Shown: positions 30,996 to 56,234 of the stretch, in pieces
How positions within the stretch are numbered: the stretch's first letter is position 1
How the letters are laid out: the number at the start of each line of letters is the position of its first letter
NCBI RefSeq assembly: GCF_900114325.1
Contig: NZ_FOSR01000012.1
Coordinates: 1 to 64,000 of the forward strand
Length of the DNA: 64,000 bases
Source of the DNA: Rhodanobacter glycinis
GTDB taxonomy: Bacteria; Pseudomonadota; Gammaproteobacteria; Xanthomonadales; Rhodanobacteraceae
Direction of reading: 5' to 3'
The notes under the pieces: model-generated
What the model saw: the letters and a program-made list of their open reading frames with translations, nothing else
Told to the model about the DNA's origin: nothing
Databases searched by the model: none
Position numbers and translations under genes: made by a program

Positions 30996-33224
30996 ATGGC
31001 AGGAATGACGGGCAGTCGCGGGCTGTGGCTCGCGGCCCTGGTGTGTGGCCTGGGCTGGCCGGTGCTGGGCTGGGCCCAGTCGGCGCCGGCGCCGGCAGCC
31101 AGTACGGCGGCACCGGCGGTGGCAAGCAGCGCACCGATTCCGTTCGCACCGGCACACCAGACCATCATCACCACGCCCAGCGCGCCGAATGCCTGGGGCG
31201 GCCAACGCACTGGCAGCGAGCCGACGCTGTCCGACCGGGTGGTCAGCTACACCATCGATGCCAGCCTGGATGCAGCGAAGCACCAGGTGACCGGCAAGGA
31301 ACACATGACCTGGCGCAACCGCAGCGATCGCCCGGTCAGCCACGTCTACTTCCACCTGTATCTCAACGCCTTCGCCAATGACGGCAGCACCTGGTTCACC
31401 GAGCGCAGGGTGCTTACCGCGCATGGCCGTTCGCGCGGCAACGCCCGGCTGAAGAAGGGCCAGTGGGGCTGGGTCCACCTGCAACAGGTCGAACAGGACG
31501 GCACGGCGCTGAAATGGAGCTTCGTGCACCCCGATGGTGGCCCCGCCACCGACGAGACGGTGGTGCGCTTCGACCTCGCCCAACCCGTGCCCGCCGGCGG
31601 CACGCTCGCGCTGGACATCAACTTCCTCAGCCAGTTGCCACGCGTGGTCGAGCGCACCGGTTGGTGGGGCGATTTCAACCTGGTCGGACAGTGGTTTCCG
31701 AAGATCGGCGTGCTGGAATTGCCGGGCGAACGCGGCGCCACGCAAGTGCGCTGGAACGTGCACGAGTTCCACTTCAACAGCGAGTTCTACGCCGATTTCG
31801 GCCTGTACGACGTACACCTGACCGTACCCAGCGATTACACCGTGGGTGCGGTGGGACAGGAGCAGGGCGCGCCGGTATCGAAGGATGGCCAGACCACCTA
31901 CCACTTCGTGCAGGGCGACGTGCACGACTTCGCCTGGGTAGCCGCCAAGGGCTACAAGACGCTGGACGGCAGTTGGACCGGCCCGGGCAGCCCCAAGGTG
32001 GACGTGCGGGTGATCTATCCGCCCGAATACGTGGGCAGCGCTGCGCCGACGCTGAAGTCCACCATCGCCGCGCTGGGTTACTTCTCGAAGACGCTGGGGC
32101 CTTACCCGTATCACACGGTGACCGCGGTGATCCCGCCGTACAACGCGCAGGAAGCCGGTGGCATGGAATACCCCACCTTCTTCACCTCGGAGGGCTACAA
32201 GAAGGTGGAGCCGGGCACGCTGAGCCAGTACGAGAGCGATTTCGTCAACATCCACGAATTCGGTCACGGCTACTTCTACGGCATCATCGCTTCGGACGAA
32301 TTCGAGGAGCCGATGCTCGACGAAGGCCTCAACGAGTACTGGGATGACCGCATGCTGCGCGACACGCATGAGGACATCACCGCTGCCTCGCCGCTGATGA
32401 AATGGCTGGGCATCACACCGACACTCACCGCCTTCCAGATGGAACGTCTGGGCGCCACCTTGAGGCAGCCGGCCGATCCGCTGGCGCAGAACAGCTGGGA
32501 TCGCCTGTCCAGCACCAGTTACGGCACGGTCTACACGCGCACCACCACGGCCATGCACGACCTGGAGCTGCGCATGGGCAAGGCGACCATGGCAAAGGCC
32601 ATGCGCCTGTACTACCAGCGCTGGCGTTTCCGCCATCCTTCGGTGGCCGATTTCCGCCAGGCGATGATCGACGGCTCGGGCGACGCCAAGGACGTCAACG
32701 AAATCTTCGACCAGTTCGTCTACGGCACCAAACACATCGACGATCGCGTGGCCTCCATCGATACCCGCCAGGTGCTGCCGCAGGCTGGCGTGACGTGGAA
32801 GGACGGCAAGCCAGTGGAAGCCGACGGCACCGCGCTGGACAAGCAGATCGCCAAGCAGGAGTCGGACTGGAAGAAGGCGCACCCCAAGGCGAAGCCGGGC
32901 AGCGGCGGGGCCTATCCCTGGCACAGCACGGTGACGGTGCTGCGCGACGGTGCCCAGGTGCCCGAATTGCTGCGCGTGACCTTTGCCGACGGCAGCCACG
33001 AAGACGTGCATTGGAACGATGATCGCCGCTGGGCGCGCTTCGACTTCGTCAAGCCGGGCAAGGTGGTGTCGGCCGAGCTCGATCCGCAGCAGCAGGTCTA
33101 CCTCGATGCGAACAAGCTCAACGACAGTTACGCAACCAAGCCGAACAGCGCCGCGTCGCGTCGCTGGAGCGCCGACGTGGCTGCCGTGCTGCAGGCTTTC
33201 TACTCGATGCTGGTGACCTTGTGA
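30996..33224 (+). CDS. M1-family (aminopeptidase N-like) metallopeptidase
   Basis: A 742-residue secreted or periplasmic protein with a signal peptide (RGLWLAALVCGLGWPVLGWA). The zinc site is complete: HEFGH (His420, Glu421, His424) followed by 18 residues and Glu443 in LDEGLNE, the M1 HExxH-x18-E pattern. The exopeptidase motif is GGMEYP rather than GAMEN, as in divergent M1 proteins. The first 190 residues form a beta-rich domain. The C-terminal 150 residues lack recognised motifs. Its stop overlaps the start of a membrane protein (TGATG), suggesting a joint function. True peptide substrate is unknown. Confidence 0.85.
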   Translation: MAGMTGSRGLWLAALVCGLGWPVLGWAQSAPAPAASTAAPAVASSAPIPFAPAHQTIITTPSAPNAWGGQRTGSEPTLSDRVVSYTIDASLDAAKHQVTGKEHMTWRNRSDRPVSHVYFHLYLNAFANDGSTWFTERRVLTAHGRSRGNARLKKGQWGWVHLQQVEQDGTALKWSFVHPDGGPATDETVVRFDLAQPVPAGGTLALDINFLSQLPRVVERTGWWGDFNLVGQWFPKIGVLELPGERGATQVRWNVHEFHFNSEFYADFGLYDVHLTVPSDYTVGAVGQEQGAPVSKDGQTTYHFVQGDVHDFAWVAAKGYKTLDGSWTGPGSPKVDVRVIYPPEYVGSAAPTLKSTIAALGYFSKTLGPYPYHTVTAVIPPYNAQEAGGMEYPTFFTSEGYKKVEPGTLSQYESDFVNIHEFGHGYFYGIIASDEFEEPMLDEGLNEYWDDRMLRDTHEDITAASPLMKWLGITPTLTAFQMERLGATLRQPADPLAQNSWDRLSSTSYGTVYTRTTTAMHDLELRMGKATMAKAMRLYYQRWRFRHPSVADFRQAMIDGSGDAKDVNEIFDQFVYGTKHIDDRVASIDTRQVLPQAGVTWKDGKPVEADGTALDKQIAKQESDWKKAHPKAKPGSGGAYPWHSTVTVLRDGAQVPELLRVTFADGSHEDVHWNDDRRWARFDFVKPGKVVSAELDPQQQVYLDANKLNDSYATKPNSAASRRWSADVAAVLQAFYSMLVTL

Positions 33225-34141
33225 TGATGGCCTACAACACTTCCCGTCGCGTGGGTCCCGGGGCCCTGTTCTCCGCCATGCTGGCGGCCATCCAGTGGCG
33301 CCTGCTGCTGTTGTGGCTGCTGTTCCTGCTGCTGCCGGTGGCAGTGGTGGCGTTGCCGTTGTGGCGCACGCTGGCCGGGCTGCTCGATCACTCCGTGCAC
33401 TCGGCCCAATGGGCGCAGCACTTCAATGCATCGATGTTCGGCGACACGATGATGGCCTTGAGCGGACACGCCGCGTGGTTTGGCGCCACGGCCCTGCTCG
33501 GAGTGGTGCTGACCCTGCTGCTGTCGCCGTTCCTCGACGGCATGATGGTCGGCAGCGGCCGTGCCGGGCGCACCCTGGGCTTCGGCGCGTTGCTGCAGAA
33601 CGGCTGGATCGAATACGGGCGGATGTTCCGCGTGATGCTGTGGGCGCTGGTGCCTTACGCGGTGGTGCTGGTGGTCGCTGGGGCGGGTTCGCACCTGGCC
33701 GACAAGCATGCCGCGGAAGCCGTGCTGCAATCGCAGGCGGATGCCTGGGCGCATGGTGCGAAGTGGGTATTGCTGGTGGTGTTCGTGCTGGCGCAGGCGA
33801 TCGTGGAGTCGATGCGCGCCGCGTTCATCGCCGACCCCGAACTGCGTTCGGCCACCCGCGCGTTCGGCCGCGGCCTCCTGCAACTGTTGCGCCGACCGCT
33901 GGGCACCTTGCTGTTCTATCTGGTGGTGAGCGTGATCGGCCTGCTGATCTTCGGCGCACTCGGCCTGGCACGCATCCACTCCACGGCAGTGGATGGCGGC
34001 TTCCTGCTGGCGTTGTTGCTGGGTCAGCTGATGGTGCTGGTGGTGGGCTGGATGCGCTTGGCGCGCCTGTTTGCGTTGGCCGCGGTGTCGCGTGCATGGC
34101 GAGCGGGGCGGCGCTCGTCGGGATTTGCATCGGCACGCTGA
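33224..34141 (+). CDS. multipass membrane protein, unknown function
   Basis: Not recognised as a named family. The 305-residue protein has about six predicted transmembrane segments: LLLLWLLFLLLPVAVVALPL, AAWFGATALLGVVLTLLLSPF, VMLWALVPYAVVLVVAGAG, WVLLVVFVLAQAIVESM, LLFYLVVSVIGLLIFGALG and FLLALLLGQLMVLVVGWM. The C-terminus is basic. It starts at the ATG overlapping the peptidase stop, so it is translated with the M1-type peptidase. It could be a partner or substrate-handling membrane component; no catalytic motif is visible. Confidence 0.75.
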   Translation: MMAYNTSRRVGPGALFSAMLAAIQWRLLLLWLLFLLLPVAVVALPLWRTLAGLLDHSVHSAQWAQHFNASMFGDTMMALSGHAAWFGATALLGVVLTLLLSPFLDGMMVGSGRAGRTLGFGALLQNGWIEYGRMFRVMLWALVPYAVVLVVAGAGSHLADKHAAEAVLQSQADAWAHGAKWVLLVVFVLAQAIVESMRAAFIADPELRSATRAFGRGLLQLLRRPLGTLLFYLVVSVIGLLIFGALGLARIHSTAVDGGFLLALLLGQLMVLVVGWMRLARLFALAAVSRAWRAGRRSSGFASAR

Positions 34142-34303
34142 TCGGAGGCGTTGCATATGGCCGGGAGGGAGCATGCTCCTCTTCTGGTCACGTTGTGAGC
34201 GTTTGCTGCCCGGAATGCTTTGGGGCGTTCCGCCCGGACTCAAATGCCTGGGTAACGTGCCGCCACGAGGGTGACGGGGTTTCGCCCACCTGCCGGTGGC
34301 CAA

Positions 34304-34337
34304 GTCACTTTCTCTCGCTTGCCCGAGAGAATGTAAC
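34304..34337. repeat. imperfect 14-bp-arm hairpin
   Basis: TCTCTCG (34311-34317) pairs with CGAGAGA (34324-34330) around CTTGCC. The stem extends outward through GTCACTT / ATGTAAC with two mismatches. It resembles a dispersed element whose intact form is a long A/T-flanked hairpin. Confidence 0.55.
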
Positions 34338-34491
34338 CCAAGAGAGGGGCACCCTGCGTTCGCGCCCACCGGCTCTGCGAGCCGGCGGGTCCGCGCCCGG
34401 CTACGGGGGTTCGCCGACAGCACATCGGGCAACTGCGTCCTGCGTTGCCTCAACTCCGGCATCCATGCCGTCGCCTGCCCTGACGTCGAAC

Positions 34492-34513
34492 TGACCGGCA
34501 TCCATGCCGGTCA
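34492..34513. repeat. 22-bp palindrome
   Basis: TGACCGGCAT (34492-34501) is perfectly complementary to ATGCCGGTCA (34504-34513), with two bases between. A related CCGGCATCCATGCCG block occurs about 35 bp upstream (from 34457). Confidence 0.6.
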
Positions 34514-34736
34514 CCCTGCGGGCCTGATCCTCCGCCGTGCGCCGCTTCTCGAAGGGGATGAAAAAGCCGCACACCGCAGCGCCAAGCTCGACCACACGCG
34601 TCCGCTCTTCCTACCCCTCAGTTGACGGTGACGGCGCGGTGTGGCCGCTGGTGTAACAGGAAGTGTCACGCAGGTTCCAAACCCCTCGACCGCCAAGGCT
34701 TGTAGGGTCGGCGGGTCCCATAGGCCATTTCTCTGG

Positions 34737-34838
34737 GTTACGTCTCTTGACTCCGGGCATCCTGCCCTTCGCCCTTCGGGCCAGCTTCGCTGTTCGCCAC
34801 TGCTCCTGCAGTGGCGTGGGCCAGCAAAGAGAGGTAAC
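34737..34838. repeat. long stem-loop with internal hairpin
   Basis: GTTACGTCTCTT (34737-34748) can pair imperfectly with AAAGAGAGGTAAC (34826-34838). Inside, GCCACTGC-TCCT-GCAGTGGC (34796-34815) is a perfect 8-bp hairpin. The whole block could fold as one branched structure. Confidence 0.5.
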
Positions 34839-34859
34839 TCGGGCGCCGGCAGGCGTCCG

Positions 34860-34929
34860 AAAGCCCGCCGCAGGCGAGCAATCTAGCGACCACGTCAGAA
34901 CGAGCAAAAGCCCGCCGCTGGCGAGCAAT
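34860..34929. repeat. direct repeat, 23-bp units 47 bp apart
   Basis: AAAGCCCGCCGCAGGCGAGC-AAT (34860-34882) recurs at 34907-34929 with one substitution. Each unit also contains the small dyad GCCCGCCG/CGGCG-like core. Confidence 0.6.
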
Positions 34930-34975
34930 TCCACGATAACGCCTGCAGCCCACCCGGAACGGGCCGCAGCCCCGC

Positions 34976-35515
34976 CTACGCGAAGGCGCGACGCGCCTCA
35001 GCCCGAGGCGGATAGTAGGCGAACACGTGGGTGTCGCTGCCGTAGAAATCCATGTCCTCGATGTGCTCGCCGCCCAGCCGTTCGGCCACGCGATCGGAAG
35101 CATCGTTGCCGATGCGCACCAGGCTGATCACGCGCGGCACGTGCAGGCGGCTCCAGGCGAAATCGAGCACGGCGTTGCCGGCTTCGGTGGCGTAGCCGTG
35201 GTGGCGGTGTTCCGGCTTGAGCATCCAGCCCAGTTCCACGTCCGGCCAGCCTTCGGGGTGGAACAGACCGGCGCGACCGATGAATTCGCCGCTTTCCTTC
35301 AACTCCAGCGCCCACATGCCGTAACCGCGCAGTTGCCAGTGGCCGATCAGCATGGCCAGCGAGCGCCAGGCATTGGTGCGGTCCAGCGGCTGGCCGTCGC
35401 CGACCCAGCGCGTGCTCTCCGGATCACCCAGCATCGCGGCGTAGTCGTCGAAGTGGCGTTCGGTGAGGGCGGTGAGGCGCAGGCGCGCGGTTTCGATTAC
35501 GGGGATATCAATCAT
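34976..35515 (-). CDS. GNAT family N-acetyltransferase (RimJ/RimL-like)
   Basis: A 179-residue acetyltransferase. It starts MIDIPVIETARLRLTALTER, the typical opening of the RimJ/RimL acetyltransf_3 group. It has FIGRAGLFHPEGWPDVELGW, LKPEHRHHGYATEAGNAVLDF (acetyl-CoA loop) and SLVRIGNDASDRVAERLG near the end. The substrate is unknown; ribosomal-protein acetylation is only one option in this group. It lies immediately downstream of the SET-domain gene (stop at 35522) on the same strand, so the two are likely co-transcribed. Confidence 0.88.
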   Translation of the reverse strand: MIDIPVIETARLRLTALTERHFDDYAAMLGDPESTRWVGDGQPLDRTNAWRSLAMLIGHWQLRGYGMWALELKESGEFIGRAGLFHPEGWPDVELGWMLKPEHRHHGYATEAGNAVLDFAWSRLHVPRVISLVRIGNDASDRVAERLGGEHIEDMDFYGSDTHVFAYYPPRAEARRAFA

Positions 35516-54961: not shown

Positions 54962-55162
54962 GGGGTGGGCACGTCAGGGGGATGGTTCGGCCATTGTAGG
55001 CGACGACTGTGGTGCCCTGGGAAAGCCGTTTGGCGGGTGTTTTTGCAAGGAGAGGCTTCAGTCGTGATGTTCTTGCTTGTTCCTGACCCACCGTCGTGTG
55101 GATCTTTGGCTGCCGCCGTTTCCAGCGAATTGCTGGAGGCACCGATTGCTTCGAGGGTACAG

Positions 55163-56047
55163 CTACCGCTTGAAGCAATTTTCCCTGTGCCAGGCCAGAT
55201 AGGTTGCGTGCGGTCGCAGGTCGGGATTGGCAGGGATACGCAGCTTTCTATCCGGCAGAATCAGCTTGTCCAGATCATCGGGTACGCCATGGGGTGAGAG
55301 CAGGATGCTGTAGTCATCGGCGAAGGTCAGCAGGCCTCTATCAAATAGCCAGTGAGCCGTGCCGGTGAGGGCAATGCCATTGCGGACGGTATCGGGGCCA
55401 TCGGCTTCTACCGAACGGATATGGGCAGCCTGAACTTCAGGGCGACCACCGCCATTGATCAGGCGAAGACCTGTGACCGCACAAGTGTTTGCGTAGGCGT
55501 TGCGGACATGGCGCCTGAATGCGGCATCACGAAATTTTCGTTGGCTGACCTGTTCCACGATGGGGTGCACGACATACTCAGGCACAGGTTCTGCCACCCG
55601 GTCAGCCAGCTCCCATGGTTGGGGCTGGGCGTACAGGCCGGCTTGTGCGATTCGATCGAATTCCTCTCTGGGAATCAGGCGAACAGATCGACCGAAGGCG
55701 CCTTTGTTGGTTGAACCATCCGCTTTTTGCAGAATTGATTCCCGGTACTCTGCACCTTCACGAAACGCGATGGCTTGATCGAACTCCAGGAAGCCGCGCA
55801 TCTGTGCGTAATGATGATCCGGTCGCGCGGGGTCCTGCGTGATGCCCGCGACTTGAGCGATGGCAAAGTAGGCTTGTCGGCCACCAGCGCGGTTCGGACC
55901 AGTGGACCGACGTGGTTCGTAGTAGATGATCCAGTCACCAATAGCCTCTTCGACCTGTCGAAGATAGGTGCGAGGGAAGTGGTAACGGCACTCGATCTGG
56001 TCGTCGTAAGCGGAGCTTTCTGAAGCGGTGAATATCGCGTTGGTCAT
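55163..56047 (-). CDS. HNH endonuclease (possible modification-dependent restriction enzyme)
   Basis: A 294-residue protein in two parts. The C-terminal half is an HNH_2-type nuclease: CAVTGLRLINGG, EVQAAHIRSVEADGPDTVRN GIAL (first catalytic His) and HWLFDRGLLTFADDYSI (distal His/Asp-like). The N-terminal half (about residues 15-140; YHFPRTYLRQVEEAIGDWII YYEPRR, YFAIAQVAGI) looks like a small PUA/EVE-type domain of the kind that reads modified bases; this is a guess from pattern. The gene is isolated, and its base composition is visibly lower in GC than its neighbours (one line near 55700 is about 47%), which suggests acquisition. No methyltransferase or partner is adjacent. Confidence 0.75.
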   Translation of the reverse strand: MTNAIFTASESSAYDDQIECRYHFPRTYLRQVEEAIGDWIIYYEPRRSTGPNRAGGRQAYFAIAQVAGITQDPARPDHHYAQMRGFLEFDQAIAFREGAEYRESILQKADGSTNKGAFGRSVRLIPREEFDRIAQAGLYAQPQPWELADRVAEPVPEYVVHPIVEQVSQRKFRDAAFRRHVRNAYANTCAVTGLRLINGGGRPEVQAAHIRSVEADGPDTVRNGIALTGTAHWLFDRGLLTFADDYSILLSPHGVPDDLDKLILPDRKLRIPANPDLRPHATYLAWHRENCFKR

Positions 56048-56234
56048 CCTGCCTCCCCGTGTTGCCCAGGTTACCAGGGATAACGCGCTATGGGATTTCA
56101 CGCGTGGCACGGCATGCCGGACTTGCAAAAGCGGAAGTATCGTGGAGTCCTTCAGGGGCGTTCAGCGAGCTGATGGCGAAGCGGTGCAAGGGATCAAAGT
56201 GCACACCACGCTGTGCCCACAGCGCATGTCAGCG

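Follow-up and report, generated by a model that had tools for sequence, protein, structure and literature searches.

The 834-bp stretch at positions 34142-34975 of the window, as the whole 64,000-nucleotide segment of Rhodanobacter glycinis DNA that was analysed is called here, is one copy of a family of large, hairpin-packed dispersed repeats. With a probability of about 0.7, it is best explained as a non-coding, non-autonomous and recombining REPIN/MITE-like element that has inserted where two genes converge and depends on a putative mobiliser. New copies would be made when a transposase or another enzyme supplied in trans acts on the ends with their hairpins, while recombination and conversion between copies would reshuffle the modules and turn the core round. 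In addition, template switching during replication would rewrite one palindrome arm from the sequence of its partner, both arms thus changing in one step. Excerpts of the published work on such switching between inverted repeats describe that it homogenises the arms and inverts the spacers (PMC8604942).

Genomic setting and architecture of the window copy

The codon-usage caller placed no gene between 34141 and 34976, and of the five ORFs inside or overlapping 34142-34975 four had no Pfam match and one had a sub-threshold match. On the left the stretch is bordered by an ORF without Pfam match (33224-34141, from the same caller) and on the right by a gene for a GNAT acetyltransferase (34976-35515), these neighbours being convergent and facing the 834 bp with their two 3' ends. 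The caller left a larger gap at 54962-56234, but this is occupied by an ORF with an HNH-endonuclease domain, so that no stretch lacking a likely gene is longer than 34142-34975; its description in the initial annotation as 834 gene-free base pairs and the longest non-coding stretch of the window was thus upheld. The ORF in the larger gap (55163-56128, minus strand, 321 aa; PF13391, E 2.3e-9) was missed by the codon-usage caller, and it may therefore have an atypical composition and have been acquired.

Hairpins such as those annotated are present, as is the 22-bp palindrome, and the region folds strongly: 34281-34862 surpassed 100 of 100 shuffles in all three settings, with z values of -6.0 for RNA of the plus strand, -7.0 for RNA of the minus strand and -4.9 for DNA of the plus strand. 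The two 23-bp direct repeats were located at 34860-34882 and 34907-34929, identical at 22 of 23 positions and 47 bp apart from start to start, and the GTAACCC/AGAGAG blocks, reported in both orientations, do recur inverted at the two ends of a core. The following features were delimited:

34205-34279, plus strand: left outer domain, found in part of the family only and much diverged; begins at about 34205 and includes the hairpin-like CCGCCACGAGGGTGACGG
34280-34862, plus strand: core of 583 bp, TTTCG...CGAAA, with terminal inverted repeats aligned and limits checked
34303-34338, plus strand: hairpin 1, belonging to the left terminal repeat, with two main alleles in the copies of the source genome
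34310-34331: hairpin TTCTCTCG(CTTGCC)CGAGAGAA
34369-34385: hairpin CCGGCTC(TGC)GAGCCGG
34428-34475, plus strand: optional 48-bp module containing the CCGGCATCCATGCCG palindrome
34492-34513, plus strand: 22-bp perfect palindrome with loop TCCA
34561-34615, plus strand: A/B module junction zone, where left module A meets right module B
34616-34862, plus strand: right module B, the sole part matched by many congener copies
34735-34748, plus strand: left arm of hairpin 2
34749-34816, plus strand: 68-bp insert within the hairpin 2 loop, with TCC-loop hairpins of its own
34795-34816: hairpin CGCCACTGC(TCCT)GCAGTGGCG
34817-34838, plus strand: remainder of the loop and right arm of hairpin 2
34860-34929, plus strand: right tail, built on a 47-bp tandem unit of which 23 bp are conserved, AAAGCCCGCCGCNGGCGAGCAAT

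The two core ends form an imperfect inverted repeat, with one hairpin in each end; a repeat search with seed 9 and minimum length 12 listed no inverted pairs. The same limits bound a core of opposite orientation in the orthologous copies L248 and L259, where the shared ends are longer than the imperfect terminal inverted repeats of the window, and a 437-bp core that is identical between copies of the source genome falls inside them. The left outer domain is 0.21-0.69 identical to the window copy over 34205-34256 in the source-genome rows aligned there.

The modular build of the element is apparent from the copies of the source genome, four of which match module A alone (L031, L032, L035, L036) and one module B alone (L033). 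The 48-bp module is 98-100% identical to the window in L020, L022, L023, L031 and L032 and is gapped in the remaining 11 aligned rows. Hairpin 2, with arms at 34735-34748 and about 34823-34838, is imperfect, and the 68-bp insert in its loop is present in 5 and absent from 8 of the 13 source-genome copies readable by a motif test, the insert itself being 90-100% identical to the window in the carriers. Among 30 copies of the congener G014, the insert was present in 10 and absent from 14, with 6 unread. A lone 48-bp piece resembling this insert (84%) lies near tRNA genes elsewhere in the source genome (C29:68613-68660). The number of tail units also varies among copies, with extra units in L022.

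Distribution, turnover and rearrangement of the family

The source genome holds 36 matches to the element, corresponding to 20 places once neighbours within 500 bp are joined. Four of these places are contig ends with one common core: the draft assembly stops there inside the identical 437-bp core, which must occupy at least two places, with outer parts that differ and belong to the same family. The family is therefore relevant to genome assembly as well. Matches were found in 37 of 61 genomes, the source genome included, and reached 113 in G014. Accordingly, the proposal of "degenerate mobile repeats" stands as far as the dispersed copies are concerned, but degeneration applies only in part, given the identical core at two or more places.

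In an order-wide sample, scored with two candidates per genome, 57 of the 76 genomes of the host family matched (tallied by eye). Outside that family 81 of 223 genomes were hit, mostly by short pieces among the matches listed. These outside hits were rejected as family members, most of those listed looking short and some falling on a common hairpin embedded in G014 copies. A CACCCCAACCCTC-type hairpin repeat of 40-45 bp is embedded in G014 copies (L132, about 2036-2080), and it also stands alone at many sites in G006, G007 and G013, with 90-100% identity. The fetched copies of the element sit between called genes, some of them touching a gene (L037, L145). Plasmid and phage records, among which those nearest the window may be missing, gave no DNA match to the element, and an 18-base word from module B had no match in viral contigs. 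No account of the family was found in the titles and abstracts of the literature on Rhodanobacteraceae and Xanthomonadaceae repeats, Stenotrophomonas palindromes, RsmA of Xanthomonas, and Dyella and Luteibacter, a level at which an existing account could escape notice.

The same two neighbouring genes are readable in six congeners, where they are separated by 52, 30, 135, 67, 154 and 158 bp, as against 834 bp in the window. In one of these short-spacer congeners a tail-like relic lies beside the GNAT gene (L050), and in two others (L043, L044) element sequence adjoins that gene; in all three the orientation matches that of the window copy. Such remnants indicate that the site was occupied more than once or that the element was lost repeatedly; in other species the place beside the GNAT gene would thus be either an insertion hot spot or the seat of an old presence followed by repeated loss.

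Further differences emerged from the close pair G007 and G010, which are 97% alike at the GNAT gene and for which 24 and 25 loci were compared. Two sites where a G010 copy faces a short G007 spacer were searched, and they showed unaligned stretches of 797 and 766 bp in G010 versus 53 and 196 bp in G007; here as at the short congener spacers, the flanks of the empty sites are too diverged for a target duplication to be read. The 68-bp loop insert occurs in L234 and is missing from its orthologue L261, and a 125-bp piece of module A found in L249 is lacking in L272. Between L248 and L259 the core orientation is opposite, and the cores are 87% alike versus 93-97% for the flanks, which suggests that one core may have been replaced by another copy rather than turned in place. 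In L241 (1766-2779, G010), half of the element runs into about 1 kb that is absent at the aligned place of G007.

Copies in which module A is followed by an inverted A were found in G002, G006, G007, G010 and G013. These A+A quasi-palindromes measure about 595-750 bp at 69-76%, L220 reaching 750 bp at 76%. The dispersed copies, the short orthologous sites and the inverted modules and ends lend support to the earlier suggestion of a composite element whose mobile repeats are inversely arranged.

Covariation of the hairpin arms

In G014 each hairpin has a few alleles, most of which are still complementary. Covariation was followed in an alignment of 23 G014 copies. Of 30 fetched, 27 had a block that could be located, and L139, L141, L144 and L145 were left out on account of differing block lengths. 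Of the 1150 pair cells of this alignment, 160 carried two-sided differences, 2 one-sided differences and 46 were unpaired; these cells count copies and not events, and because the copies are related the differences are not independent. Two-sided differences affected 20 of the 50 pairs, and 96% of the cells in the five hairpins were paired, the unpaired ones falling in hairpins c (26), d (16) and e (4). Pairing dropped to 40-50% when partners were shifted by 1-3 columns. There were 24 pair types, fewer than the mean of 30.9 after shuffling. The combination of alleles over the five hairpins was distinct in 22 of 23 copies, and in 8 of 10 hairpin pairs the two commonest alleles occurred in all four combinations. 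The arm copying proposed above would account for the two-sided differences as well as for the opposite orientation of the core.

A rival reading takes the copies for a family of structured regulatory RNAs, such as a CsrA/RsmA sponge. GGA is the motif bound by CsrA, and on the minus strand the loops of module A read GGA. An RsmA-sequestering RNA, RsmU, is described for Xanthomonas in excerpts of PMC7694677. Strong folding on both strands and the high proportion of paired cells agree with this possibility, and so does the conservation of the loops: on the plus strand, module A has a TCC loop in 89 of its 113 distinct hairpins, and module B in 20 of 55. GGA loops numbered none in module A and 3 in module B.

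The kind of mismatch points in another direction. A functional RNA should show an excess of G-T over A-C mismatches. Hairpins with at most one mismatch were collected from 129 A and 80 B segments and oriented by module. The resulting 168 distinct hairpins contained 19 G-T, 15 A-C and 42 other single mismatches. By comparison, the acceptor and T stems of the tRNAs of the source genome (33 of 35 distinct sequences) had 21 G-T, 1 A-C and 4 others among 396 pairs. The ratio of 19:15 differs from 21:1 with a Fisher p of 0.0018, and this near equality favours, at the level of sequence comparison, hairpins being kept up as DNA rather than as a conserved RNA.

Other observations also weigh against an RNA. 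One-sided differences were found in 2 cells as opposed to 160 two-sided ones, Rfam covariance models gave no match up to E 1 for the window region and one G014 copy, and the flanking genes mostly turn their 3' ends to the element, so that neither strand is favoured. Moreover, the inverted A+A copies would place TCC and GGA loops on one strand; on this ground and on the wobble test the CsrA sponge was dropped as a candidate. A structured regulatory RNA is thus an improbable reading of these sequences, and the structured RNA put forward in the initial annotation finds no support in the pattern of base differences or in the Rfam result. As to the covariation check, the two-sided differences did appear, but the wobble excess typical of RNA did not.

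Returning to an element maintained as DNA, the conserved loops are not accounted for by drift with arm copying alone, and something may therefore read them.

Position relative to genes, candidate mobilisers and known repeat systems

Of 78 readable flanks, 57 show the 3' end of a gene, any gene called within the element being disregarded. The setting was convergent at 17 of 31 element sites, whereas 6 of the window's 36 gaps were convergent (p 0.0017); it was divergent at one of the 31 sites, which comprise 14 copies of the source genome, 16 G014 copies with both flanks readable and the window copy, all tallied by eye. Ten more congener copies outside this test (L076-L085) included 5 convergent settings and 1 divergent. 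A preference for the space downstream of genes is also reported for REPs in the portions of PMC3733652 drawn upon here. In the present family, it most likely reflects tolerance at such places, with perhaps a minor part in ending transcription.

Another rival reading would see the copies as bidirectional transcription terminators, or as sites that structure the chromosome, which selection maintains and recombination alone has spread. The excess of convergent gene pairs and a tail hairpin that is followed by a T run on the minus strand would fit this view. It was judged very improbable, since terminator-like sites numbered 2 against 0.9 (sd 1.0) in shuffles, the same gene pair has short and element-free spacers in relatives, and the size and variety of the modules would seem to go beyond what termination needs.

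For a mobile element, the obvious question concerns its mobiliser, and a REP/REPIN or TIR repeat moved by a Y1 transposase (RAYT/TIRYT) was considered. The element shares with REPs the inverted doublet, the hairpins and the preference for sites downstream of genes (according to the sections used of PMC3733652 and PMC3116915), and the source genome has two Y1_Tnp matches. On the other hand, PF01797 had no match in the element carriers G002, G003, G004, G005, G010 and G012, some of which are drafts, and in 13 stretches with Y1_Tnp, a part of the matches (L289-L301), the gene is not bounded by ends of the element. Short hits to the element near Y1 genes occurred in L290 (a common hairpin; 25 bp outside the core of L248), L297 (22 bp) and L294 (a 79% match over 62 bp that lies some 1.4 kb from the gene and overlaps the end by 8 bp). 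Furthermore, the Y1 gene of the source genome in L290 lies between inverted GTAGGAGCGCACC repeats, a REP of the GTAG type that is unlike the element, at whose hairpins 1 and 2 neither a GTAG nor a CGTC tag was seen. Mobilisation by such a Y1 enzyme therefore appears quite unlikely, and no mobilising enzyme emerged from the analysis.

The gene in L290 (2017-2684; contig C8, about 105.3-106.0 kb) is Y1 transposase-like and represents a REP-transposase unit separate from the element; its inverted repeats are 80 bp long, 90% alike, each self-complementary and built of GTAGGAGCGCACC units.

When compared with known systems, as portrayed in the consulted parts of the respective reports, the element belongs to a known type of non-coding bacterial repeat, of which it is an uncommon form. 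Like REPINs, it is a dispersed, non-coding and extragenic pair of inverted hairpin units, occurring as singlets and doublets (PMC3116915). It departs from REPINs and their RAYTs in showing no GTAG tag, no linked RAYT in the examined stretches and several additional allelic hairpins. REP/REPIN palindromes are 20-40 bp long with GTAG or CGTC, as against a core of 583 bp and untagged hairpins 1 and 2, while the inverted pair is shared; no RAYT gene bounded by the element repeats was found in the stretches examined.

BIMEs likewise cluster palindromic units between genes (PMC3733652), in blocks of alternating orientation (PMC2817692). The element is a mosaic too, but REP units were not seen in its core. 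The TIR repeats or TIRtrons, such as those of Stenotrophomonas maltophilia, resemble it in their partly self-complementary terminal repeats and moderately abundant families (PMC3733652). They bound tyrosine transposase genes, whereas the element bounds none in the 13 stretches. With bacterial MITEs the element has in common terminal inverted repeats, imperfect in the window copy, as well as the lack of coding capacity and the position next to genes, but MITEs measure 70-300 bp (PMC3733652) and the element is longer. Neither a parent transposon nor a target duplication came to light; the matched places of the source genome lie too far apart in the draft to show an autonomous transposon.

A bolder reading, to be entertained only tentatively and with a rather low probability, would make the family a new class of bacterial repeat. 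Each copy would be a series of DNA hairpins whose TCC-type loops are fixed and whose stems are freely replaceable, both arms being renewed in one step. The modules would reassort, invert and dock into hairpin loops, and a hitherto undescribed enzyme would mobilise them by recognising the loops when the DNA is single-stranded.

Compensatory base changes are commonly read as evidence for functional RNA, and this family covaries strongly without a wobble bias. Covariation of this sort makes the DNA route, in which palindrome arms are copied, testable, and it warns against calling such repeats RNA.
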